NCBI RefSeq assembly: GCF_003003885.1
Contig: NZ_PVWN01000016.1
Location: forward strand, 1 to 64,000
DNA length: 64,000 nt
Source: Chlorogloea sp. CCALA 695
GTDB taxonomy: Bacteria; Cyanobacteriota; Cyanobacteriia; Cyanobacteriales; Chroococcidiopsidaceae
Direction of reading: 5' to 3'
In this document: positions 17,842 to 30,019 of the stretch, one piece after another
Layout: each line of letters opens with the position of its first letter
Position numbering within the stretch: the first letter of the stretch is position 1
Translations under genes and position numbers: made by a program
The notes under the pieces: generated by a model
What the model saw: the letters and a program-made list of their open reading frames with translations, nothing else
Told to the model about the DNA's origin: nothing
Databases searched by the model: none

Positions 17842-17914
17842 CTCCTATCCCTTCAAAACCGCTACGCTGAGTGTAGGGAGGGATAGGAGGCAAGCTCATG
17901 AGCGTTGCGCCTCC
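17842..17914. repeat. two overlapping stem-loops left of tnpB
   Basis: CTCCTATCCC (17842-17851) pairs perfectly with GGGATAGGAG (17880-17889), and the loop contains a further CTAC/GTAG pairing. From within the second arm a new stem begins: GGAGGC (17886-17891) with GCCTCC at about 17909-17914, enclosing the palindrome GCTCATGAGC. The phrase CCCTTCAAAACCG occurs after both left arms. These may be the left-end hairpins of the IS200/IS605-type element or an unrelated palindromic repeat. The remainder of 17462-17841 shows no gene. Confidence 0.6.
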
Positions 17915-17999
17915 CTTCAAAACCGACAAGCAAAGCTCTCGGAAAGAAGGGGGTGACTGGCGTTTGAGCAATTATTTTGTGCATAGGGTTTCACAGTTA

Positions 18000-19198
18000 A
18001 TGTGTTATAATGTGAGAATGCTCAAAGCCTTCAAGTACCGTTTTTATCCCACTTCTGAACAAGAAACCTTGTTGCGGAGAACTATGGGGTGCGCTCGTTT
18101 GGTTTACAACCGAGCGTTGGCGGCAAGGACGGAGGGCTGGTACGAAAGAAGGGAAAGAATCGGTTATGCCGACACTTCTACCATGCTGACGTTTTGGAAA
18201 AAGCAGGAGGATTTGCAATTTCTGAATGAGGTTAGTTGCGTACCTTTGCAGCAAGGACTTAGGCACTTGCAAAAGGCGTTTGCTAACTTTTGGACGGGAA
18301 CAGCTAAGTATCCCAACTTCAAAAAGAAGCATAACGGCGGTAGTGCAGAGTTTACCAAATCTGCTTTTAAGTGGAAGGATGGGCAAGTATTTTTGGCTAA
18401 GTGCCGAGAAGCATTGCCTATTCGTTGGAGTAGACAATTGCCTAAAGGGTGCGAACCCAGTACGATAACGGTCAAACTTGATGCTTCGGGACGTTTTCAC
18501 GTTTCTTTGCTTGTAGATACATTTGTTGAACCATTGCCAAAATCCAATAAATCTATCGGTTTGGACGTGGGTATCTCTAGCTTGATTGCTACCAGCAATG
18601 GAGACAAAATTGCTAACCAAGGCACTTTAAACGGTTGAGGACTAAACTCAGACGAGTACAAAAATCGTTGTCTCGCAAGCAGAAAGGGTCTAATAATCGA
18701 CACAAAGCGAGGCTCAAAGTAGCTAAAGTACACTCCCAAATAACTGATAGCAGAAAAGACTTTTTGCATAAGCTGACTACTCAACTGGTGAACGAAAACC
18801 AAACCATCGTGGTTGAGGATTTGGCGATTAAAAACATGGTTAAAAACCACAAATTGGCGCTGCATATTTCTGATGCTTCTTGGGGAGAATTGATACGTCA
18901 ACTTGCTTACAAATGCGAGTGGTACGGACGTGAATTGATAAAAATTGATCGATGGTTTCCTAGTTCTAAAAGGTGCGGAAGTTGTGGGCATATTGTAGAT
19001 AAAATGCCGTTGAATGTACGGGAGTGGGAGTGTCCTAGATGCTCTGTAATCCATGATCGTGATATCAACGCGAGTAAGAATATTCTGGCGGCAGGGCTTG
19101 CCGTTTCAGTCTGTGGAGCGAACATAAGACCTGATGACCAATCGGTTAAAGGGCAGTTGCGAAATACCCGAAAGGGAAAGAAACAGAAACCTAAATAG
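18000..19198 (+). pseudogene. tnpB: frameshifted TnpB (RNA-guided nuclease, IS605 OrfB)
   Basis: TnpB is an RNA-guided DNA nuclease, ancestor of Cas12. Frame 1 runs from MCYNVR/MLKAFKYRFYPT to a stop at 18638. The homologous continuation RHFKRLRTKLRRVQKS is in the -1 frame. Restoring one C in the CC run at 18617-18618 gives the expected IANPRHFKRLR, so a one-base deletion, or a sequencing error, breaks the gene. Otherwise the protein is complete: RuvC Asp in GLDVGI, Glu in VVEDLAIKN, zinc finger CGSC...CPRC, and last Asp in HDRDINASKN. A TTG at 18635 could restart the C-terminal half. Its guide RNA would overlap the 3' end. Confidence 0.88.
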
Positions 19199-19253: not shown

Positions 19254-19886
19254 TTAGCTTTCAATATGTGGTGCAGAATAATAAATAATTGCTAGAAAAA
19301 CTATCGGCAATTCAATCAACCTCTCTGGTCCGTGCGGAATATCGCCTTGAAACGTTAGCGAGTCGCCAGGTTTTAATAGATAAGTAGATTGTCCGTGTCG
19401 ATATTCAATTTTGCCTTGCAGCATATGAATAAACTCTACTCCTGGATGTTCAAAAGTTGGAAAAGCCTCCGAAGCATCGTCCATTGCAATCAAAAATGGT
19501 TCAAATAACTTAGTAGAACCGCGATCATAAGCTAATAGATGGTAGGTATGACCGCATTTAGTCCCTCTGCGTACTACTTCCATTCCTTCGCCACTTTTGA
19601 CCAGTTGCGCGTCGCCTTCGGGCATATTGTAGTTGCGAAATAAAGTTGAAAGCGATACCCCTAGCGCACTGGCTAGTTTTGCTAAGGTTTCTAGACTGGT
19701 TGCAGTTTGAGCATTTTCAATTTTTGATAGCATCCCACGCGAAATGTTTGCGCGATCGCATACCTCAGCAATTGTTAACCTGTGTTTTTGCCGCAATTGC
19801 CTGATCGTATTGCCAATATAACGCTCTAAAGAACCATTATCAGTTTGTTCTGTGGATGCCATGAGTTTATTTTCTACTGCAACCAT
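19254..19886 (-). CDS. XRE-family regulator with C-terminal cupin sensor
   Basis: A transcription factor with an N-terminal helix-turn-helix (about residues 25-80, RQLRQKHRLTIAEVCDRANI followed by SRGMLSKIENAQTATSLETL) and a C-terminal cupin domain. The cupin blocks are FEHPGVEFIHMLQGKIEYRHG, in parts, and LKPGDSLTFQGDIPHGPERL. Cupin regulators of this type usually bind a small ligand. It is transcribed divergently from the mgd-gmaS-mgs operon, 90 bp away, and is its most likely regulator. ATG 19886 is chosen. A TTG at 19901 and an ATG at 19844 are alternatives. Confidence 0.85.
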   Translation of the reverse strand: MVAVENKLMASTEQTDNGSLERYIGNTIRQLRQKHRLTIAEVCDRANISRGMLSKIENAQTATSLETLAKLASALGVSLSTLFRNYNMPEGDAQLVKSGEGMEVVRRGTKCGHTYHLLAYDRGSTKLFEPFLIAMDDASEAFPTFEHPGVEFIHMLQGKIEYRHGQSTYLLKPGDSLTFQGDIPHGPERLIELPIVFLAIIYYSAPHIES

Positions 19887-19888
19887 TT

Positions 19889-19934
19889 TGCATAATAGCA
19901 AGCATTGACAGATATAAATAAAAAGTGCATGATA
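19889..19934. promoter_or_regulatory. candidate operator repeats in the divergent promoter region
   Basis: TGCATAATA (19889-19897) and TGCATGATA (19926-19934) are direct repeats, 37 bp start to start, in the 90-bp gap between the XRE-cupin gene and mgdA. Their position suits binding by the divergent regulator. This is inference from position and repetition only. Confidence 0.3.
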
Positions 19935-19975
19935 TTCACTAAAGTTTCTTGTAAAGAATCTTAACTGCTCTAACT

Positions 19976-21217
19976 ATGCCGTTACGCTTATTAAAATTTG
20001 CCCTGAATAAGAAGTATCCAGAACCAAGGATGTTTCGGCAATGCGATCGCCTAAAATCGGGCTACGATGCGGTAATTATTGGCGGTGGCGGTCATGGACT
20101 GGCGGCGGCTTATTATTTGGCAAGGGATTACGGGATAACTAATGTTGCGGTTTTAGAAAAAGGCTATATCGGCGGCGGAAATACGGGACGAAATACAACA
20201 ATTATTCGCTCTAACTATCTCACGCCGGAAGGAGTGAAATTTTATGATGAATCGGTGAAATTGTGGCAGGATTTGGCACAAGATTTTGACTTAAATTTGT
20301 TCTACTCTACACGCGGACATTTTACACTAGCGCATACTGACGCATCGGTAAGAACAATGCGCTGGCGGGCGGAAGTAAATAAGCATTTTGGGATTGATAG
20401 CGAGTTGGTGAGTCCCCAAGAAGTCCAAAAAGCTTGTCCGTACATGGATATTAATTGCGGCGGAAATGCCCCGGTTTTAGGTGCTTTGTTCCACGCACCA
20501 GGAAGTATAGCCCGTCATGATGCTGTGGCTTGGGGCTACGGACGCGGTGCAGACTTGCGCGGGGTAGAAATTCACCAACAAACGGAAGTATTAGGAATTG
20601 AGGTTAAAGGGGGCAAAATTACGGGGGTTAGAACCTCACGCGGTCATATTTCTACTCCAAAAGTATTGTGTGCGGTGGCGGGATCTACACCTCGGATGTT
20701 GAAAATGGTGGAAATGAAGTCGCCAATAGTTATTCATCCGTTGCAAGCAATGGTTAGCGAACCAATGAAAGCTTGGTTAGATCCAATAATAGTTTCTGGT
20801 AGCTTGCACGTCTATGTTAGTCAAACCGCTAGAGGAGAGTTAGTTATGGGTGCATCTTTAGACCCTTACGAGTTGCATTCTACGCGATCTACTTTTGATT
20901 TTACTGAAGGATTGGCGGCGCATATGCTGGAATTATTCCCGATGCTTTCCCACGTTAAAGTAGTACGCCAATGGGCGGGAATGGCAGACATGACACCGGA
21001 TTTTGCGCCAATTATGGGGAAGACAGAGATTGAAGGGTTTTATTTAGATGCAGGTTGGGGAACTTGGGGTTTTAAAGCAACTCCCGTATGCGGTAAAACT
21101 ATGGCTTATACTGTGGCGTGCGATCGCAATCATAATTTAATTACAGATTTTTCTCTATCTCGGTTTACAAATCATGCCTTAGTTGGGGAAAAAGGCGCAG
21201 CTTCGGTGGGACACTAA
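19976..21217 (+). CDS. mgdA: N-methylglutamate dehydrogenase subunit A (SoxB-like flavoprotein)
   Basis: Beta-like subunit of the four-part N-methylglutamate dehydrogenase / sarcosine oxidase family, which oxidises the N-methyl group. 413 residues. The FAD-binding Rossmann motif is VIIGGGGHGLAAAYYLA (about 34-50), followed by GGGNTGRNTTIIRSNYL, a phrase typical of this subunit, and a C-terminal GWGTWGFKATPVCG block. Family members hold non-covalent FAD and share a covalent FMN with the alpha subunit. It is first of eight co-directional genes, with its stop codon immediately before the next start. The mgd rather than sox name rests on the downstream gmaS and mgsABC. Substrate is inferred, not shown. 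Confidence 0.85.
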   Translation: MPLRLLKFALNKKYPEPRMFRQCDRLKSGYDAVIIGGGGHGLAAAYYLARDYGITNVAVLEKGYIGGGNTGRNTTIIRSNYLTPEGVKFYDESVKLWQDLAQDFDLNLFYSTRGHFTLAHTDASVRTMRWRAEVNKHFGIDSELVSPQEVQKACPYMDINCGGNAPVLGALFHAPGSIARHDAVAWGYGRGADLRGVEIHQQTEVLGIEVKGGKITGVRTSRGHISTPKVLCAVAGSTPRMLKMVEMKSPIVIHPLQAMVSEPMKAWLDPIIVSGSLHVYVSQTARGELVMGASLDPYELHSTRSTFDFTEGLAAHMLELFPMLSHVKVVRQWAGMADMTPDFAPIMGKTEIEGFYLDAGWGTWGFKATPVCGKTMAYTVACDRNHNLITDFSLSRFTNHALVGEKGAASVGH

Positions 21218-21475
21218 ATGATTATTGTAACTTGTCCGATTAATGGTGCTAGACCTGTTTCTGAGTTTGTTTGCGGTGGTGAAGTGCGTTTAATGCCCAA
21301 TCCTCAAACAACAGACGATGCAACTTGGGCGGATTATGTGTTTAATCGCAATGGAGAAGCAGGGATAAAAAAAGAATGGTGGTGTCATACTCCTAGTAAT
21401 ACTTGGTTTATTGCTGAACGAAATACCCAAACTGACGAAATTATCAGCACTTATTTATATCAGGGGGCTTTATGA
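21218..21475 (+). CDS. mgdB: N-methylglutamate dehydrogenase subunit B (SoxD-like)
   Basis: Small delta-like subunit, 85 residues. SoxD proteins bind structural zinc through a CPxC pair near the N-terminus and His/Cys residues near the middle. Here the first site reads CPIN (Cys6, Asn9) and the second WWCHTPSNTW (Cys56, His57), so the standard ligand set is incomplete. The ordering GGEVR...EWWCH...WF and the position between SoxB-like and SoxA-like genes make the assignment secure. It starts directly after mgdA and overlaps mgdC by the ATGA junction at 21472, implying translational coupling. Confidence 0.85.
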   Translation: MIIVTCPINGARPVSEFVCGGEVRLMPNPQTTDDATWADYVFNRNGEAGIKKEWWCHTPSNTWFIAERNTQTDEIISTYLYQGAL

Positions 21476-24330
21476 GTAATCGATTGTCTCCTGTAAATGG
21501 AGAATGGATAAATCGCCAGCAACGAATTGATTTTACCTTTGAAGGTAGGCGCTATTGGGGCTATGAGGGGGACACGATAAGTAGTGCGTTGTGGGCATCA
21601 GGGCAACGTATACTTGGGCGTAGCTTTAAATATCATCGTCCGCGCGGCATTTTGAGCATGGCAAACCATGATATCAATGCTTTGATGCAAGATGGGCAAA
21701 AGCTGAACGTGCGTGGAGATGTCACGCCATTAACTCAGGGAATGACATTAGAAGCTGTAAATACCTTTGGTGGAGTAGAAAGCGATCGCGCCAGCATTAT
21801 TAACTTCTTCTCAGCTTTTCTCCCCGTAGGATTTTACTACAAAGCTTTCCACAATAAAAAGCTATTTCCCTTTTGGGAGCGGACTATTCGTAATATTAGC
21901 GGTTTGGGAAAATTGGATGTAAATACGCCTCATATTCGTACCCCAAAGCGTTATGATTTTTGCGATGTATTGGTAATAGGTGCGGGTGTTTCGGGACTAT
22001 CCGCAGGTTTAGCTGCTGCAGAATCCGGCTACGATGTAGTAATTGTTGATGAAAATGCCAACATTGGCGTAGAGACGTTGCGCTGCAACGTCTTTAATCA
22101 TCCCAAAATCAGAATCTATACAGCAACCCAAGCAGCAGGATATTACGCCGATCGCCTGATACCTTTAGTTAATAGCAATTATTTGTCTAAAATGCGTGCA
22201 AAAGCAGTAATTGCAGCAACGGGCGCATACGAACAGCCAGCAGTATTTCGCAACAACGATTTGCCAGGAGTAATGTTAGCATCGGCGGCGCAAAAGTTAA
22301 TTTATCGCTACGCTGTCAAGCCGATGAATCGGGCAGTAGTTTTATTAGCAAATAAGGAGGGATATCAAGCAGTTTTAGATTTAGTCGCCCATGATGTAAC
22401 AGTAATGGCAATAGTGGATTTAAGAAAAGATCCGCCAGTAAATGAATTAACGGAAAAAGTGCGATCGCTCTCTATTCCCATTTACCCTGGTTATTGCATC
22501 ATTGAAGCCAAACCAAACCCCGCCGGGGATGGCGTTGCAAGTGCTGTAATTTCTCCGATTGCTAATCAAGGAGTAACCGAGAAAATAGCTTGTGATGGCA
22601 TTGTTATGAGTGTAGGTTGGGCATCTGCTGCAAACTTGTTGTATCAAGCAGGTACTAAAATGCGCTTTGATGACTTTTTGCAGCAGTTTGTCCCCGAAAC
22701 CTTGCCGCCGGGAGTGTTTGCTTGTGGGCGGGTAAATGGGGTGTTTGATTTTGACCAAAAACTACTTGATGGGAAAAGAGCAGGGCTAGAAGCCGCTAAT
22801 TACTTAGGCTTAGGCGATAAATTAGAGATTACTGTTGCTCCAGAAATTGAACCGCCTTCGTATGGGTGGGCGATCGCACCTCATCCCCAAGGTAAGGAAT
22901 TTGTAGACTTTGACGAAGACTTGCAATACAAAGATTTTGTTAACGCCATTCAAGAAGGATTTGACAACATTGAACTATTAAAACGCTATACAACAGTGGG
23001 AATGGGCCCAAGTCAAGGTAAACATTCAAATATGAATGCTTTGCGAATTTTGGCGAAAATTACCGGGAAATCGCCGGGAGAAGTAGGGACAACTACCGCT
23101 AGACCTTTTTTTCATCCTGTACCGATGGCGCACTTAGCCGGAAGAGGTTTTACACCTTTTAGACAAACTCCTTTACATAGCCGTCATGAAGCTTTGGGCG
23201 CGTGCTTTATGGCGGCGGGAATGTGGAGTAGACCAGAGTATTACACTCAGCTAGGTAAAAGTAGAAAAGAGTGTATTGAGTTTGAAGTTGCAACAGTGCG
23301 CGATCGCGTTGGTATTATTGATGTTGGGACTTTAGGCAAAATTGAAATTAGAGGCGCCGAGGCGGCGAAGTTTCTAGAACGAGTTTACACCGGACGTTAC
23401 AGTAATATGACTGTTGGGACAACTCGTTATGCACTGATGCTAGATGAAACGGGTGTAATCGTTGATGATGGTGTAGTTGCAAGGTTAGGAATTGAGCATT
23501 TTTACTTTACAACTACAACTTCTGGTGCAACGCAGATATATCGGGAATTGTCGCGGTTACTTATTTTGTGGCAATTAGATTGTGGGATCGTTAATTTAAC
23601 AGGAGCGCGATCGGCAATTAATTTAGCGGGATGTTATGCAAGGGAAGCCTTAGCTAAATTAACTAATATCGATCTGGATAGTACGGCTTTTCCTTATTTA
23701 GCAGTCCGCGAGGCAGAAATTGCAGGCATTCCGGCTTTGTTAATGCGTGTCGGCTTTGTAGGTGAATGGGGTTATGAAATTCATGTAGCCGCCGAATTTG
23801 CCCCAGCGCTTTGGGATACGCTATTAGAAACTGGAAAAGATTATCAAATTGCAGCTTTTGGCGTAGAAGCACAAAGAGTATTGAGGTTAGAAAAAGGTCA
23901 TTTAATCATCGGTCAAGATACCGATGGTTTAACAACGCCAATTGAAGCAAATCTAGAGTGGGCGGTAAAGATGGATAAACCCTTTTTTATCGGTCAGCGT
24001 AGCTTACAAATTGTAGCTAAACGTGAGGTGAAACATAAACTTATCGGCTTCAGGTTGGATGCAGACATCGTTACTCCACCGCAAGAATGCCATTTAGTCA
24101 TTGATCGCAATGATATTGCTGGGCGTGTTACAAGTATTGCTTTTAGTCCAACTAGGCAACGTTACATTGGTTTAGCTTACATTACGCCAGAACTTGCAAC
24201 TACAGGAGAATTTTCAATTAAGTTAAGCGATCGCACATCTATATCTGCAACTATATGTCCCACCCCATTTTACGATCCTGGTAATCTGCGCCAAAAAGCA
24301 GCAAGCCAACGTCAGGAGGTAGGCGCATGA
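21472..24330 (+). CDS. mgdC: N-methylglutamate dehydrogenase subunit C (SoxA-like, with GcvT domain)
   Basis: Large alpha-like subunit, 952 residues. In order: an N-terminal ferredoxin-like module without cysteines (about 1-90, ending RSFKYHRPRGI); a dinucleotide-binding oxidoreductase core with VLVIGAGVSGLSAGLAA (about 165-181); a SoxA linker region; and a C-terminal aminomethyltransferase (GcvT) domain (about 590-945) that in this family passes the methyl-derived carbon to tetrahydrofolate. A palindromic repeat (22073-22093) lies in frame and encodes the ETLRCNV stretch directly after the VDE of the first Rossmann fold. There the protein seems shorter than homologues by roughly 25 residues. 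ATGA overlaps join it to mgdB and mgdD. Confidence 0.85.
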   Translation: MSNRLSPVNGEWINRQQRIDFTFEGRRYWGYEGDTISSALWASGQRILGRSFKYHRPRGILSMANHDINALMQDGQKLNVRGDVTPLTQGMTLEAVNTFGGVESDRASIINFFSAFLPVGFYYKAFHNKKLFPFWERTIRNISGLGKLDVNTPHIRTPKRYDFCDVLVIGAGVSGLSAGLAAAESGYDVVIVDENANIGVETLRCNVFNHPKIRIYTATQAAGYYADRLIPLVNSNYLSKMRAKAVIAATGAYEQPAVFRNNDLPGVMLASAAQKLIYRYAVKPMNRAVVLLANKEGYQAVLDLVAHDVTVMAIVDLRKDPPVNELTEKVRSLSIPIYPGYCIIEAKPNPAGDGVASAVISPIANQGVTEKIACDGIVMSVGWASAANLLYQAGTKMRFDDFLQQFVPETLPPGVFACGRVNGVFDFDQKLLDGKRAGLEAANYLGLGDKLEITVAPEIEPPSYGWAIAPHPQGKEFVDFDEDLQYKDFVNAIQEGFDNIELLKRYTTVGMGPSQGKHSNMNALRILAKITGKSPGEVGTTTARPFFHPVPMAHLAGRGFTPFRQTPLHSRHEALGACFMAAGMWSRPEYYTQLGKSRKECIEFEVATVRDRVGIIDVGTLGKIEIRGAEAAKFLERVYTGRYSNMTVGTTRYALMLDETGVIVDDGVVARLGIEHFYFTTTTSGATQIYRELSRLLILWQLDCGIVNLTGARSAINLAGCYAREALAKLTNIDLDSTAFPYLAVREAEIAGIPALLMRVGFVGEWGYEIHVAAEFAPALWDTLLETGKDYQIAAFGVEAQRVLRLEKGHLIIGQDTDGLTTPIEANLEWAVKMDKPFFIGQRSLQIVAKREVKHKLIGFRLDADIVTPPQECHLVIDRNDIAGRVTSIAFSPTRQRYIGLAYITPELATTGEFSIKLSDRTSISATICPTPFYDPGNLRQKAASQRQEVGA
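22073..22093. repeat. AGACGTTGC palindrome inside mgdC
   Basis: AGACGTTGC (22073-22081) and GCAACGTCT (22085-22093) form a perfect 9-bp stem with a 3-base loop, within coding sequence and keeping the frame open. The same palindrome is intergenic at 24918-24938 and 57410-57432. Confidence 0.9.
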
Positions 24331-24917
24331 GGACTTCTAACAGTTTTAGCACCATCGGCGATGTTAATGAAATACAAATAGTGGACAACGTAACGCAGTT
24401 AGAAATTGTCGATTTATCCTTTATTCCTCGATTTGGCGTTAAAGGTGCGGGTGCAGAAGCGTGGTTAGCTACACAATCAATAGCTGTACCTGATTTTCCG
24501 AATAGTTGGTGTTTCCTCTCAAAAGGAGGAATTATTGCCCGTTTGGGTGCAAATGAATTTTTGATTGAAGATCGGACGATCGCACCTCAGTTAACACAGG
24601 CTTGTAAGTCTCCTCCACCAAAGGTTTACCCTGTCTTGAGACAAGACTTAGCGAGCGCACTTATTGGACTCCAGGTAAACGAATTACTATTACAGACTTG
24701 CAACTTTAACTTTCAATCGCTATCAATTACCGAGAATCCAGTAATTTTAACTTCAATGGCAGGAGTAAATGTCACAGTAATTCCAGGAGTTCTTCAGGAA
24801 CAACCATTTTACAGAATTTGGTGCGATTGTACCTTTGGAGTGTATTTATGGCAAACCTTAAATGCGATCGTATCTGAATTAGGCGGCGGTGCGATCGGCA
24901 ACGCAACATTATTGTAG
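24327..24917 (+). CDS. mgdD: N-methylglutamate dehydrogenase subunit D (SoxG-like)
   Basis: Gamma-like subunit, 196 residues. SoxG proteins have a GcvT-like fold and complete the heterotetramer. Sequence conservation is usually low; recognisable blocks are FIPRFGVKGAGAEAWL near the N-terminus, ARLGANEFLIE, and a C-terminal CDCTFGVYLWQTL. Assignment rests on these and on position after the SoxA-like gene, with which it overlaps by ATGA. The stop codon TAG at 24915-24917 borders the palindromic repeat at 24918, whose usual 5' neighbour is GTAG, so the repeat probably set the present C-terminus. Confidence 0.8.
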   Translation: MRTSNSFSTIGDVNEIQIVDNVTQLEIVDLSFIPRFGVKGAGAEAWLATQSIAVPDFPNSWCFLSKGGIIARLGANEFLIEDRTIAPQLTQACKSPPPKVYPVLRQDLASALIGLQVNELLLQTCNFNFQSLSITENPVILTSMAGVNVTVIPGVLQEQPFYRIWCDCTFGVYLWQTLNAIVSELGGGAIGNATLL

Positions 24918-24938
24918 AGACGTTGCGGTGCAACGTCT
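24918..24938. repeat. AGACGTTGC palindrome between mgdD and gmaS
   Basis: AGACGTTGC (24918-24926) and GCAACGTCT (24930-24938) with a 3-base loop. In the transcript it would form a hairpin 31 bases before the gmaS start and could weaken or process the message between the dehydrogenase genes and gmaS. Confidence 0.85.
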
Positions 24939-24968
24939 TTATACATTTATAAAAAAGGAAAATAATTA

Positions 24969-26297
24969 ATGACACCAGAACAAGCCAAACAATTTTTAGC
25001 CGAAAACAAAGTAAAGTTTGTACTGGCACAATTTGTCGATATTCACGGCGTAGCCAAAACAAAAGCATTACCAGCAGGGCATTTTGACGATATTCTCAAT
25101 CCGGGGGCGGGTTTTGCAGGTTTTGCTGTATGGGGTTTAGGAATGCAGCCAAATAGCCCGGATTTTATGGCGGTAGGCGATTCAACCACACTATCTTTAG
25201 TACCTTGGATGCCCGGATTTGCCCGTGTAGTCTGTGTTGGTAATGTTAAAGGACAACCATACCCTTACGATTCCCGCTTTATATTAATGCAGCAGTTAGA
25301 AAGGCTGAAACAAAAAGGTTGGACTTTATACACAGGATTAGAACCAGAATTTTCTTTACTTTATCAAGATAAACGCGGGAATATTTACCCCTGTGATCGC
25401 ACCGATAATTTAGAAAAGCCTTGCTACGATTACAAAGGACTTTCTCGCAGTCGGGCTTTTATCGAAAAATTGGTAGACTCCTTGCAAGCGGTGGAGTTTG
25501 ACGTTTATCAAATTGATCACGAAGATGCTAACGGTCAGTTTGAAATTAATTATACTTATACCGATGCGTTGACATCGTGCGATCGCTACATTTTCTTTAA
25601 AATGGCGGCTTCAGAAATAGCCAAAGAAATGGGTTTAGTTTGCTCATTTATGCCTAAACCTTTCGCCAATCGTTCCGGTAACGGAATGCACATTCATATG
25701 TCAATCTCGGATGGCAAAAGTAACTTATTTGCTGATGATACCGACGAAAAAAATCTAGGATTATCAAAACTAGCCTATCATTTCATGGGCGGATTATTAG
25801 CTCACGCCCCAGCTTTGACGGCGATTTGCGCCCCAACGATTAACTCCTACAAACGTTTAGTAGTGGGGCGAAGTTTAAGCGGTGCAACTTGGGCCCCTGC
25901 TTACATAAGTTACGGAGACAACAATCGCTCTACTATGGTGCGGATTCCTGGAGGGCGCTTAGAATTACGTTTAGCTGATGGATCTTGCAACCCTTATTTA
26001 GCTACAGCAGTGGCGATCGCAGCCGGGTTAGATGGCATCGAAAAAGAGCTAGATCCAGGCGAACCTTACAACAATAATTTGTACGATCTATCCGACCGGG
26101 AACTCAGAGATAAAGGCATTCAAACTTTACCTCAAAGTCTCTCCCAAGCCCTCGACGCTTTGGAGTCGGACGAAGTAATAACAAGCGCTTTGGGAGTATT
26201 AGCCGAGGAATTTATTAGCCTCAAACGGATGGAATGGGTGGAATATATGCGCCATGTTTCCGAGTGGGAAGTAAAAAAGTATTTGGAGTTTTTCTAA
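24969..26297 (+). CDS. gmaS: gamma-glutamylmethylamide synthetase (GlnA/GlnT-like)
   Basis: ATP-dependent ligase of the glutamine synthetase superfamily, 442 residues (usual GmaS/GlnT length about 440). It would join methylamine to glutamate, giving gamma-glutamylmethylamide, the first step of the N-methylglutamate pathway. GS landmarks are visible: [14 protein letters not shown] in the N-terminal grasp domain, the metal-binding EPEF and [14 protein letters not shown] blocks, [11 protein letters not shown], and the ATP/glutamate site [20 protein letters not shown]. Plain glutamine synthetase activity cannot be excluded from sequence alone; the flanking mgd and mgs genes decide the call. A good AGGA site precedes the ATG, and mgsA begins two bases after the stop. 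Confidence 0.82.
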
Positions 26298-26299
26298 TT

Positions 26300-27193
26300 A
26301 TGTGTGGAATTGTGGGATTATTGGTTAAAAAACCCCAATTACGGGAACATTTAGGCGAATTAATGATGCCGATGTTAATCGGAATGAGCGATCGCGGATC
26401 GGATTCGGCGGGACTTGCCGTATTTACAGAACCCATAGCAGAAAGGGATCGCAAGTATAGTTTGTACTCTGGAAGTGCGTTTAATTGGCAAGGATTAGCG
26501 CACAATTATCAAACACATTTTGGTATTGAGGCTAATTTATCTCTACCAGTGGGCGATCGCGCTGTCTTAACTTCTCACCTTTCCCCAGATATTGTAAAGC
26601 AGTGGATAAAACAAAATTATCCGCAGTTACATATACTTTCAACGGGACGCACCATTGATTTATACAAAGATATTGGTACACCCGCCGATGTTGCTCATCG
26701 TTACAACTTTCAATCTCTCAAAGGTTCGCATTTAGTCGGACATACGCGAATGGCGACAGAATCAGCCGTTACACCTGATCGCGCTCATCCTTTCACAGCA
26801 GGAGAAGATTTTTGTTTAGTACACAACGGATCTCTATCTAACCCTAACGAAATTCGCCGCAAACTCGAACCACGCGGGATTAAGTTTGAAACCGATAACG
26901 ATACCGAAGCTGCTTGTCGGTTTTTAGAATGGCGAATGCAAGAAGGCGATGACTTAGAAGCGGCTATGAATAAAGGGTTTGAGGAATTAGACGGTTTTTA
27001 TACATTTCTTATGGGTACGGCGGACAAATTGGCATTAGTGCGAGATGCTTTTGGTTGCAAACCTGCGGTTGTGGCGGAAACGGATAATTATGTAGCGATC
27101 GCCTCTGAATTTCGTTCCCTCGCTCATTTACCCGATATAAAACACGCTCATATCTACGAACCCGTACCAGAGGAGATGTATGTATGGACATAA
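26300..27193 (+). CDS. mgsA: N-methylglutamate synthase subunit A (class II glutamine amidotransferase)
   Basis: Corresponds to the amidotransferase part of glutamate synthase as a separate protein (also called GlxB). The true start is ATG 26300, giving Met-Cys2-GIVGLL: Cys2 is the N-terminal nucleophile after Met removal, so longer upstream frames are wrong. Further class II landmarks are SDRGSDSAGLAVF, GHTRMATESAV and LVHNGSLSNPNEIRR. In the pathway it would hydrolyse gamma-glutamylmethylamide and channel methylamine to the synthase. It overlaps mgsB by ten bases. Confidence 0.85.
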   Translation: MCGIVGLLVKKPQLREHLGELMMPMLIGMSDRGSDSAGLAVFTEPIAERDRKYSLYSGSAFNWQGLAHNYQTHFGIEANLSLPVGDRAVLTSHLSPDIVKQWIKQNYPQLHILSTGRTIDLYKDIGTPADVAHRYNFQSLKGSHLVGHTRMATESAVTPDRAHPFTAGEDFCLVHNGSLSNPNEIRRKLEPRGIKFETDNDTEAACRFLEWRMQEGDDLEAAMNKGFEELDGFYTFLMGTADKLALVRDAFGCKPAVVAETDNYVAIASEFRSLAHLPDIKHAHIYEPVPEEMYVWT

Positions 27194-27867
27194 CTTTCGA
27201 TCTTGCTCAAACTTCCGTGCGTGAAGTCAATCAATATCTGCATCACAACTTAGTAGACAATGCAAGTCAAGTAACAATTATTAATTCCGACGGCGCACAC
27301 AACATCGCTATTGGTTTAAACACACCCGTAGACATAGAAATTATCGGACATACAGGCTATTATGCCGCCAGCATGAATAAACTAGCAAACGTAACTATTA
27401 CAGGCAATGTAGGTACAGGAGTTGCCGAAAACATGATGTCTGGACGAGTCCATGTCAAAGGCTTTGCATCTGTCTCTGCGGGGGCTTCGGCGCACGGAGG
27501 GTTACTAATCATTGATGGTAATGCAGGTTTGCGCTGCGGTATTTCTCTTAAAGGTGGAGATATTATCGTTGGTGGAAATGTCGGTAGTTTTTCCGCTTTT
27601 ATGGCGCAAGCTGGGCGGATTGTAGTTTGTGGCGATGCGGGAGAAGCGTTAGGAGATTCCCTTTATGAAGCCATAATTTATGTTCGAGGAAACATCAAAT
27701 CATTAGGCGCAGATGCCCAAATTGAGCCGATGTCAGAAACTGATTATCAAGCGGTAGGTGAATTACTCGACAAAGCAGATTTACCCTATCACCCCAAAGA
27801 GTTCAAACGAGTTGCATCCGCAAAGCAGCTTTATCACTGGAATGCAGACGCAAAGCAAGAATACTAA
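27184..27867 (+). CDS. mgsB: N-methylglutamate synthase subunit B (GXGXG domain)
   Basis: A 227-residue right-handed beta-helix equivalent to the C-terminal GXGXG domain of glutamate synthase (GlxC). The repeating glycine pattern is seen from ITGNVGTGVAENMMSGRV, through ASAHGGLLIIDGNAGLRCG, to VCGDAGEALGDSLYEAIIYV, with a G about every six residues. In glutamate synthase this domain is structural, positioning the other two. The tight overlap with mgsA and short gap to mgsC support a three-subunit enzyme. Confidence 0.88.
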   Translation: MDITFDLAQTSVREVNQYLHHNLVDNASQVTIINSDGAHNIAIGLNTPVDIEIIGHTGYYAASMNKLANVTITGNVGTGVAENMMSGRVHVKGFASVSAGASAHGGLLIIDGNAGLRCGISLKGGDIIVGGNVGSFSAFMAQAGRIVVCGDAGEALGDSLYEAIIYVRGNIKSLGADAQIEPMSETDYQAVGELLDKADLPYHPKEFKRVASAKQLYHWNADAKQEY

Positions 27868-27902
27868 TTACTCCAACTTACTTATATTCGTAGCTAATTA
27901 AT

Positions 27903-29240
27903 ATGAATCCCATTCAATCTAACGAACAATCATGGGGATACGATCGCACTATCCTTAACTATATTCAAAATGCCGCCGCTCATGGACTCTACGAAATACG
28001 CGGATTAGGCGCAAAACGCAAACTACCCCATTTTGACGATTTAGTATTTTTGGGTGCATCTTTATCACGCTATCCCTTAGAAGGTTATCGAGAAAAATGT
28101 TCTACCAAAACTGTTCTAGGTACGCGCTACGCCACTAAACCAATTGAACTAGAAATTCCCATCACCATCGCCGGAATGAGTTTCGGTTCCTTATCTGCCA
28201 ATGTCAAAGAAGCTTTAGGACAAGCGGCGACGCAGATGGGGACATCAACAACAACAGGCGACGGCGGCATGACCCAAGAAGAAAGAATGTCCTCAAAAAC
28301 ACTGATTTACCAGTGTTTGCCGTCGCGCTACGGCTTTAATCCCGACGATTTGCGATCGGCTGATGCAATTGAAATAGTCATCGGACAAGGGGCAAAACCA
28401 GGCGGTGGCGGGATGTTATTAGGACAAAAAATTAATCCGCGAGTTGCTCAAATGCGGACTTTACCCGAAGGAGTCGATCAGCGTTCTGCTTGTCGCCATC
28501 CCGATTGGACAGGTTCAGACGATTTGACAATCAAAATCCAGCAATTGCGAGAACTAACCGACTGGGAAAAGCCAATTTTTGTCAAAATTGGGGCTTCGCG
28601 GACATTTAACGATGTCAAATTAGCCGTCCACGCAGGCGCAGATGTGATTGTAGTTGATGGAATGCAAGGGGGAACTGCTGCTACTCAAACCGTATTTATC
28701 GAACACGTAGGCATCCCAACCTTAGCCGCCGTGCGTCAAGCCGTAGAAGCGCTGGAAGACTTGGACATGAAGGGAAAAGTGCAATTAATTGTCTCTGGCG
28801 GGATTCGTACCGGGGCAGATGTGGCAAAAGCGATCGCCCTGGGCGCAGATGCAGTATCAATAGGTCAAGGTATTTTAATTGCTTTGGGTTGCAATAGTGA
28901 AACCTACGTGCAACATGACACCCATTTTTCAGCAGTTGAAGATTACGCCGCCCTCGGTACTGCGCCAGGAACTTGTCACCACTGCCATACAGGGAAGTGT
29001 CCAGTGGGCGTAACTACTCAAGATCCAATCTTAGAAAAAAGGCTAGAAGTTGAAGTAGGAGCAAAAAGAGTCAAAAACTATCTGCAAACTCTAAACATGG
29101 AATTAACAACAATTGCCCGTGCCTGTGGTAAGCAAAACGTGCATCACTTGGAACGCGAAGACTTAGTTGCTTTAACTATTGAAGCGGCGGCGATAGCGAA
29201 ATTGCCTTTAGCTGGGACATCCTGGATTCCTGGGGTTTAA
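27903..29240 (+). CDS. mgsC: N-methylglutamate synthase subunit C (FMN/Fe-S synthase subunit)
   Basis: A 445-residue subunit equivalent to the FMN-binding synthase domain of glutamate synthase (GlxD). It would make N-methylglutamate from methylamine and 2-oxoglutarate. Visible features are the GMSFGSLSANVKEALG and TTTGDGGMTQEER blocks, the FMN barrel phosphate site VSGGIRTGADVAKAIALGAD, and three cysteines (358, 361, 366) in GTCHHCHTGKCPVG that fit the family's [3Fe-4S] cluster. It ends the operon; the next gene on this strand starts about 300 bp later and looks unrelated. Confidence 0.87.
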   Translation: MNPIQSNEQSWGYDRTILNYIQNAAAHGLYEIRGLGAKRKLPHFDDLVFLGASLSRYPLEGYREKCSTKTVLGTRYATKPIELEIPITIAGMSFGSLSANVKEALGQAATQMGTSTTTGDGGMTQEERMSSKTLIYQCLPSRYGFNPDDLRSADAIEIVIGQGAKPGGGGMLLGQKINPRVAQMRTLPEGVDQRSACRHPDWTGSDDLTIKIQQLRELTDWEKPIFVKIGASRTFNDVKLAVHAGADVIVVDGMQGGTAATQTVFIEHVGIPTLAAVRQAVEALEDLDMKGKVQLIVSGGIRTGADVAKAIALGADAVSIGQGILIALGCNSETYVQHDTHFSAVEDYAALGTAPGTCHHCHTGKCPVGVTTQDPILEKRLEVEVGAKRVKNYLQTLNMELTTIARACGKQNVHHLEREDLVALTIEAAAIAKLPLAGTSWIPGV

Positions 29241-29542
29241 ATAAAATTTGTACTTGTCACAACAGTTGTTTAGGGCGGTTTTATATATAAAAAGTAGATA
29301 CACGGAAAAATTCTGCATAATCTCCAAATATAGATGTTGTGTGGAAAATTTCTGGTTAAAATCCTCAAAAAATAACTATGATGCTTGTGTCTTGTTCTTA
29401 AGTAGAGGATCGCATGGAAAATGTCAGTACAATAAATAGTTAGCTGGCTTTGGTTACAGGTGGTGGCAGTAGTTTGAAGCTGACTCGTTGGTGTTCAAGA
29501 TACTGTTGTAATATTGTGTCTTGTACGCGCACGGAGTTCGCA

Positions 29543-30019
29543 ATGATCCGACTCATCACTCCAGATGATACAGGTGAGCTAGTTAACTTAGCTGAGTCGA
29601 TCGGACTTTTCTCGCCGTATGAACTAGAAGAGTTGCACCAGATGTTGACTGATTCTTTGAGTAAAGAGGGCGGCACTCACCCGTTCTCAATTACAGACGA
29701 TGATGACGGACTGGTAGGATTAGCCTACTGCGAACCGGAACGAATGACCAGTGGAACCTGGAACCTGCAATTGATTGTCGTTCATCCAACTCATCAACAG
29801 CAAGGACGGGGTGGGAAATTACTACATTTTGTAGAGGAGACTTTGACGGAGCGGGGTGCGCGAGTCTTATTAGTTGAGACGATGGGTACATCAGATTTTG
29901 AGTATGTGCGGGCATTCTACCGAAAAAACGGTTATGACGAGGAAGCACGGATACGCGAGTTCTATGCAGAAGGAGCGGACAAAATTGTTTTCCGCAAGGC
30001 ACTATCTAATCAAAGGTAG
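29543..30019 (+). CDS. GNAT family N-acetyltransferase
   Basis: About 158 residues with the GNAT fold. The acetyl-CoA binding motif is VVHPTHQQQGRGGKLLHFVE (Q/RxxGxG/A type), followed by the FYRKNGY motif near the C-terminus. The frame is open upstream to 29450, but the family N-terminus MIRLITPDD starts at ATG 29543. The acceptor is unknown. An attC-like hairpin lies just downstream (30067-30153), and GNAT genes are frequent integron cassettes, so this gene may have come in as one. HIP1 octamers are absent from it. Confidence 0.88.
   Translation: MIRLITPDDTGELVNLAESIGLFSPYELEELHQMLTDSLSKEGGTHPFSITDDDDGLVGLAYCEPERMTSGTWNLQLIVVHPTHQQQGRGGKLLHFVEETLTERGARVLLVETMGTSDFEYVRAFYRKNGYDEEARIREFYAEGADKIVFRKALSNQR

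Follow-up and report, generated by a model that had tools for sequence, protein, structure and literature searches.

We analyzed a 64,000-nucleotide stretch of the cyanobacterium Chlorogloea sp. CCALA 695 (contig NZ_PVWN01000016.1, positions 1 to 64,000; hereafter the window), in which positions 19976–29240 carry eight genes homologous to those of the N-methylglutamate (NMG) pathway of methylamine utilization. The open reading frames (ORFs) are intact and co-directional on the + strand in the order mgdABCD-gmaS-mgsABC, with the gene of an XRE-cupin regulator diverging upstream. Content, gene order and phylogeny support the assignment of this set as a complete NMG operon. Genomes, contigs and loci are designated by G, C and L, respectively, followed by a number, and the window genome is G000. 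The features of the locus are as follows.

19254..19901, − strand: XRE-type regulator with HTH_3 (Pfam, 56.5 bits) and Cupin_2 (37.9 bits) domains, divergent from the operon
19905..19933, + strand: predicted sigma-70-type promoter, TTGACA-17-CATGAT, matching 10/12 consensus positions
19942..19962, + strand: inverted repeat AAGTTTCTT-GTA-AAGAATCTT, putative operator of the XRE regulator and the sole exact match in the genome
19976..21217, + strand: mgdA, SoxB-like protein of the DAO type, putative N-methylglutamate dehydrogenase (TIGR01373, 469.9 bits, under the sarcosine oxidase (SOX) cut-off of 529.45)
21218..21475, + strand: mgdB, SoxD-like (PF04267, 99.3 bits)
21472..24330, + strand: mgdC, SoxA-like with a GCV_T folate domain (TIGR01372, 790.8 against a cut-off of 1164; GCV_T, 242 bits)
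24327..24917, + strand: mgdD, SoxG-like (a 45-homolog profile matches SOX gamma chains, 3ad7_C, E 1.2e-6)
24969..26297, + strand: gmaS, putative gamma-glutamylmethylamide synthetase (TIGR03105 GS-III, 641.9 bits, cut-off 469.6)
26300..27193, + strand: mgsA, class-II glutamine amidotransferase (GATase_6/7; start taken as 26300, MCGIVG)
27184..27867, + strand: mgsB, GXGXG/GlxC-like (GXGXG, 35.8 bits)
27903..29240, + strand: mgsC, FMN-binding glutamate synthase domain (Glu_synthase, 329.5 bits)

The first-pass annotation of this DNA had described eight same-direction genes with overlaps or short gaps, and this reading holds for every ORF. There are 0 nt between mgdA and mgdB, 4-nt overlaps at both mgdB/mgdC and mgdC/mgdD, 51 nt between mgdD and gmaS, 2 nt between gmaS and mgsA, a 10-nt overlap of mgsA and mgsB, and 35 nt between mgsB and mgsC. 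The SoxB and SoxA models miss their curated NCBI cut-offs, as listed above, and so does the SoxD model (59.6 against 116.5), which fits a sister enzyme of SOX such as N-methylglutamate dehydrogenase. MgdD alone gave no family match in the domain scans, and its match to the gamma chains required the 45-homolog profile. The flavin-site segment of MgdA, IARHDAVAW, aligns with IAKHDHVAW of the SOX beta chain; it includes the flavin-site histidine, which presumably serves for covalent flavin attachment. About 13 HIP1 octamers, as dense as in host DNA, had also been noted in the operon; the count is exactly 13 in 9265 bp (1.40/kb), compared with 5122 in the 5.23-Mb genome (0.98/kb), where the reversed pattern, used as a control, occurs 19 times. 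The GC contents of the operon (0.41–0.48) and its flanks (0.37–0.45) are alike.

Among solved structures, the window GmaS best matches 9qur, Glutamate--methylamine ligase (719.7 bits), with 351 bits for Rhodovulum GmaS (7cql) and 270 bits or less for glutamine synthetases (GSs). A crystal structure of Methylovorus mays GMAS is reported in a portion of PMC12588301, and we take 9qur to be this structure. Trees of GmaS, MgsC and MgdC were built as quick trees with SH-aLRT support only, the MgdC tree under a simpler model. In the 118-row GmaS tree, 24 cyanobacterial NMG-operon sequences form one clade (SH-aLRT 99) within a group that contains 9qur and Methyloversatilis, the exact sister being unresolved; one divergent sequence labelled as operon type (L086) landed among the paralogs. 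The type I GSs of three carrier genomes (G000, G308 and G060) and other cyanobacterial GlnT paralogs fall elsewhere in the tree, and a GS gene distinct from gmaS lies on contig C57 of the window genome. The catalytic Asp, Glu and Arg of GmaS are named as D177, E186 and R312 (Rhodovulum numbering) in an excerpt of PMC7948447; the equivalent residues are kept in all cyanobacterial operon-type GmaS rows, and the Asp is missing from the GS shown. MgsC sequences of 29 cyanobacterial loci also form one clade (SH-aLRT 89; sister unresolved), and 32 cyanobacterial MgdC sequences group in a single clade (SH-aLRT 100), with Methyloversatilis, Zoogloea, Thiobacillus and Acidithiobacillus in the sister group. 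The annotation had called for a phylogenetic check of GmaS and MgsC, and neither protein branches inside GS or GltB-like groups of other function. With gmaS, mgsABC and mgdABCD all together in the window, the three trees, gene content and gene order agree at the sequence level on the complete pathway set that had been proposed.

All eight genes recur, identically ordered, in a Methyloversatilis metagenome-assembled genome (MAG; L092), Zoogloea sp. LCSB751, a Thiobacillus MAG and two Acidithiobacillus. The recurrence of this order in other cyanobacteria and in proteobacteria, the Methyloversatilis MAG included, excludes a chance neighborhood. L092 also has a divergent XRE gene, and its proteins are 78% (mgdA), 68% (mgdB), 59% (mgdC), 47% (mgdD), 66% (gmaS), 73% (mgsA), 68% (mgsB) and 85% (mgsC) identical to those of the window, whose host, unlike Methyloversatilis, is an oxygenic autotroph. 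For M. universalis FAM5, the locus tags in an excerpt of PMC5023235 point to gmaS-mgsABC-mgdABCD as the gene order, which differs from that of the window and L092; the comparison with FAM5 is by these tags. Plasmid mpAca1.1 of Acidithiobacillus caldus has the order XRE-purU-mgdABCD-gmaS-mgsABC-folD, whereas the window operon is without purU and folD. A. caldus is itself an autotroph. The alphaproteobacterial type (Methylobacterium, Rhodovulum GmaS 7cql) comprises the same pathway genes but differs in the mgsABC-gmaS order of Methylobacterium sp. DM1 and in a GmaS that belongs to a distinct clade (Methylobacterium, 41% identical to the window protein). Heterotetrameric sarcosine oxidase SoxBDAG (2gag, 1vrq) shares the subunit architecture of MgdABCD but not its operon partners, and its curated cut-offs are those missed by the window proteins. 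GlxBCD-GlnT clusters of Paraburkholderia and Aquabacterium resemble the window in gmaS-mgsABC and an XRE homolog but have no mgdABCD, and a DAO-type oxidoreductase, HutD and HutG are encoded nearby.

Clusters of gmaS-mgsABC without mgdABCD were also observed beside genes for a DAO-type FAD oxidoreductase, HutD and the N-formylglutamate deformylase HutG (L009:4354-13326 and L010:681-13326), with electron transfer flavoprotein genes in the L010 cluster; perhaps these represent another route of N-methylglutamate oxidation, via N-formylglutamate. An MgdA-like protein (23–26% identity) is encoded near gmaS-mgsABC in 14 further loci.

A survey of the eight-gene block among cyanobacteria, which the annotation had suggested, showed that the window is one of many carriers. 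In a class sample of 388 genomes, with the best 2 first-look candidates per genome scored, MgdC was found at E 1e-100 or better in 36, and 34 of these proved to be of the NMG type on inspection of the locus, representing 23 of 160 genera and 8 families; the two divergent matches (G464 and G400), SoxA without mgsABC, were dropped. All eight genes are present in 20 of the 34 loci (one set is spread over two contigs and one has a broken gmaS), 8 have all but gmaS, and 6 are cut by a contig end or degraded (G389, G571, G575, G594, G597 and G602). In the family of the window strain, MgdC occurs in 9/19 genomes (one of which, G635, looks decayed) and in its genus in 5/6, in keeping with the long residence in the host that had been proposed, and seven window genes compared with two congeners have dN/dS values of 0.03–0.28. 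Carriers among the matches listed include Kovacikia minuta CCNUW1 (plasmid pA, 1.2 Mb) and two MAGs, Chroococcus sp. CMT-3BRIN-NPC107 and Hydrococcus sp. Prado102.

Several loci depart from the common arrangement. In the congener G308, a GNAT acetyltransferase gene is inserted between mgsB and mgsC (L005:11665-12171). Insertions between mgdA and mgdB occur in L074–L080, L084 and L087 and encode a small ABM-domain protein (8 loci, one Pfam-confirmed); a low-molecular-weight phosphatase-like protein is also inserted there (5 loci, one confirmed by Pfam). Two loci look decayed. In L205 (G635), mgdA and mgdB are far apart, gmaS is truncated and the stretch yielded no mgsABC; in L071 (G389), gmaS has in-frame stops and the stretch yielded no mgsC. 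The divergent SoxD-SoxA-like genes of L086 (G464) and L089 (G400) are 36–47% identical, and mgsABC was not found in either stretch; those of G464 adjoin a GlnT paralog, and MgdC of both loci groups with Planctomycetes. In G005, a member of the family of the window strain, a GntR regulator, a DAO-type oxidoreductase, MgsABC-like proteins (36/44/66%) and a putative Amt are encoded together (L007:2614-10684), with neither gmaS nor the mgdABCD set beside the MgsABC-like genes. On this gene content, the cyanobacterium G005 puts the MgsABC complex to another use.

The presence of gmaS varies among these operons. It was scored in 35 informative cyanobacterial loci, a set that leaves out L059, L082 and L084 (cut by contig ends) and the divergent L086 and L089, takes in L090 and L091, and counts the broken gmaS of L071 and L085 as present: 26 have gmaS and 9 are without it (G060, G525, G399, G386, G413, G506, G458, G591 (Kovacikia) and G597). 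The best GmaS-like proteins genome-wide in the nine gmaS-less genomes are 42–45% identical, and none exceeds 47% among the matches listed. On a seven-protein tree, presence and absence require 6 changes (bootstrap range 5–7), 3 of them forced by well-supported branches. Among non-cyanobacterial clusters with mgdC and mgsC, 32/33 have gmaS, and the remaining one (L113) begins inside mgsA; the difference from cyanobacteria has a Fisher p of 0.014, with L113 counted as lacking gmaS and with rows that are related rather than independent. Eight of the nine gmaS-less genomes keep the other seven genes, with mgdA split in Kovacikia; in G597 the frames of mgdC and mgsA are broken, and mgsC was not found in the stretch fetched. 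In the genus tested (f43, three gmaS-less genomes), the kept genes are under purifying selection, with dN/dS of 0.006–0.18, similar to gmaS-carrying pairs.

A portion of PMC6237917 states, citing Gruffaz et al. 2014, that GMAS of M. extorquens DM4 is essential for methylamine use as a carbon source and not as a nitrogen source. In its own results, mgsABC alone formed N-methylglutamate in P. putida, at a level 2.5-fold below that reached with gmaS. For an autotroph, nitrogen would be the only use of the pathway, and recurrent gmaS loss fits this, so that the gmaS-less operons may be nitrogen-only versions. In such a form GmaS would be dispensable, with MgsABC making N-methylglutamate directly from methylamine and 2-oxoglutarate or using gamma-glutamylmethylamide supplied by the GS of the host cell; we put this form forward tentatively, at slightly less than an even chance. 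Alternatively, the host GS or a GlnT paralog may supply gamma-glutamylmethylamide in gmaS-less strains. One GlnT paralog, P1 (42–45% identical to GmaS), was considered as a general substitute and rejected: it is present in 7/9 gmaS-less, 9/26 gmaS-carrying and 3/15 other genomes and absent from the gmaS-less G525 and G060, a distribution with which it cannot be a general replacement.

The regulator probably starts later than its ORF, with the ATG at 19862 or 19886 as the likely true start. Most cyanobacterial loci have a homolog (72–94% identity) beside the operon, as does A. caldus (67%). Promoters like TTGACA-17-CATGAT with fixed spacing were found in 33/37 cyanobacterial loci and in 10/3700 mononucleotide shuffles, and the repeat, at a threshold of 13/18 or better located 37–50 bp after TTGAC, in 18/37 loci and 0/3700 shuffles; both patterns were derived from the same 37 loci (of which L090 and L203 are the same genome), and the shuffles preserve base composition only. 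The repeat scan was anchored on the promoter, and a consensus-only scan missed many loci. Two proteobacterial loci also have a similar repeat 37 bp behind TTGAC, with 15/18 matching positions in L097 and 13/18 in L093, a score that the best shuffle also reaches; these repeats suggest that the operator likely moved together with the operon. The repeat has eight matches at 2 mismatches in the window genome. A wider regulon was considered and set aside, as the nearest other match (C6:112372, 1 mismatch), between ribosomal protein L9-like and NAD-synthase-like genes (named by ORF reading), looks like chance. Taken together, the XRE-cupin protein probably controls the operon by reading the conserved promoter repeat.

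A link to one-carbon metabolism is suggested by purU, a homolog of which lies by the regulator gene and mgdA in 16/40 cyanobacterial loci (14 of the 16 being among the matches listed); at one locus it was verified as formyltetrahydrofolate deformylase (373 bits). The same XRE-purU-mgdA layout is found in A. caldus, with folD after mgsC, and a section of PMC7574528 places folD and purU in methyl-group processing in Rhodobacteraceae. PurU was rejected as a marker of the operon, as it is common in the class (above cut-off in 330/388 genomes), and only the position of purU inside the locus is thus informative.

From the gene set, order, homology, phylogeny, catalytic residues and promoter conservation described above, we infer the reactions, substrate, regulation and physiological use. 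Methylamine would enter, probably by Amt, and be joined by GmaS to glutamate at the expense of ATP, giving gamma-glutamylmethylamide. MgsABC would then pass the methylamino group on to 2-oxoglutarate, so that N-methylglutamate and glutamate form, possibly with ferredoxin as the electron donor, and MgdABCD would oxidize N-methylglutamate to glutamate and methylene-tetrahydrofolate. Glutamate would thus receive the nitrogen, and the folate pool would receive the methyl group. According to parts of PMC5023235, these genes are induced on methylamine in M. universalis FAM5, and mutation of mgsC or mgdD abolishes methylamine use. We consider it quite likely that, through its complete, old-resident NMG operon, this cyanobacterium can draw nitrogen from monomethylamine.

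Several observations weigh against this conclusion. A perfect NtcA box, GTAN8TAC, was not found at the window promoter region, although an operon for nitrogen scavenging would be expected to have one; the perfect site has one match among the loci listed (L061, about 900 bp from the regulator). PurU was not found in the window genome, and the match in the congener G308 has an internal stop, so that the methyl group cannot leave as formate in that way and, on this gene content, must go to biosynthesis or another route in both. The GlnT paralogs L015 and L172 also carry the catalytic Asp, Glu and Arg, which therefore separate GmaS from type I GS and not from these paralogs. M. mays GMAS is described as promiscuous, accepting ethylamine as well, in an excerpt of PMC12588301, and methylamine is thus a putative substrate. 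In a separately drawn phylum sample (best 4 first-look candidates per genome scored), MgsC occurs in 4/386 genomes, one of which is the different system of G005 (68%); set against 34/388 in the class, this indicates that frequency depends on the sample and that prevalence is uneven, both figures coming from samples and not from a census.

Other explanations of the locus differ in purpose, substrate or enzyme identity. The operon might mainly detoxify methylamine as an ammonium analog, the nitrogen gain being incidental: bacterial GS is said in a passage of PMC10794816 to turn methylamine into methylglutamine, and GmaS is predicted in part of PMC5023235 to serve methylamine detoxification. However, gmaS, the very step to which that role is assigned, has been lost repeatedly (9/35 loci), whereas purifying selection maintains mgs and mgd in the one genus examined, and we regard detoxification as improbable. 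The promiscuity of M. mays GMAS (PMC12588301, as excerpted above) would also allow the same chemistry on another small alkylamine, as with ethylamine or in theanine breakdown; this is quite improbable, as the folate-binding GCV_T domain of MgdC and purU inside 16 loci point to a one-carbon product such as a methyl group would give. The automatic family names would suggest sarcosine oxidase merely adjacent to an ordinary GS and glutamate synthase. We rejected this as very improbable, since SoxB, SoxD and SoxA all score under the curated cut-offs, GmaS lies away from GS in the tree, and the gene order is conserved behind a conserved promoter.

Contaminating or recently acquired proteobacterial DNA is hardly credible as an explanation. 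The MgdC sister group consists of Betaproteobacteria and Acidithiobacillus, the Kovacikia copy is on a 1.2-Mb plasmid, and no nucleotide synteny with congeners was found in the window flanks, all of which would fit a recent arrival. Against it stand the HIP1 density of the operon, the deep internal branches of the cyanobacterial MgsC and MgdC clades, and loci on multi-megabase contigs (e.g., G515 C1, 5.8 Mb, and G637 C1, 6.7 Mb); HIP1 density and the recurrence of the gene order across the class and family led us to reject contamination and a chance neighborhood. The simplest reading is that the operon probably entered with its regulator in a single old transfer, followed by spread and loss. 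As for the immediate neighbors in the window, a TnpB-like transposon gene in two overlapping ORFs (17898-19198) lies directly upstream of the XRE gene, the second ORF (18635-19198) matching OrfB_IS605 and Cas12f1-like TNB and the first assigned by reading only, and a GNAT gene (29450-30019) lies directly downstream of the operon.

The annotation was aware of no described case in an oxygenic phototroph. Among the matches listed and in the parts of open PMC full text covered, a scope outside which most subscription papers and all preprints fall, no description of an NMG pathway or operon in cyanobacteria was found, and the claim stands to this extent, with the qualification that at least one Cyanophyceae GmaS is included in a published alignment (legend of Fig. 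10 of PMC7948447). The pathway is a known one, no description of it in this host group was found in that literature, and judging from the survey and trees it is both older and more common among cyanobacteria than the window alone shows. Possible new biology lies in the gmaS-less form, which recurs and may serve nitrogen use only.

Labelled methylammonium serves in practice as an inert ammonium analog, a use that would be complicated in carrier strains if the proposed pathway operates. Methylamine uptake assays, including those in cyanobacteria, are described in a section of PMC10794816. The gmaS-free operons bear on the open question of NMG pathway topology, and the strains that carry them would provide a natural experiment on it. 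Methylated amines are a form of dissolved organic nitrogen usable by many marine bacteria. Microalgae, according to a passage of PMC7574528, are usually unable to metabolize them. If our reading is true, some primary producers would be direct consumers of methylamine, the operon being present in about 9% of the class sample (34/388), and models of cyanobacterial nitrogen metabolism would need methylamine use added.

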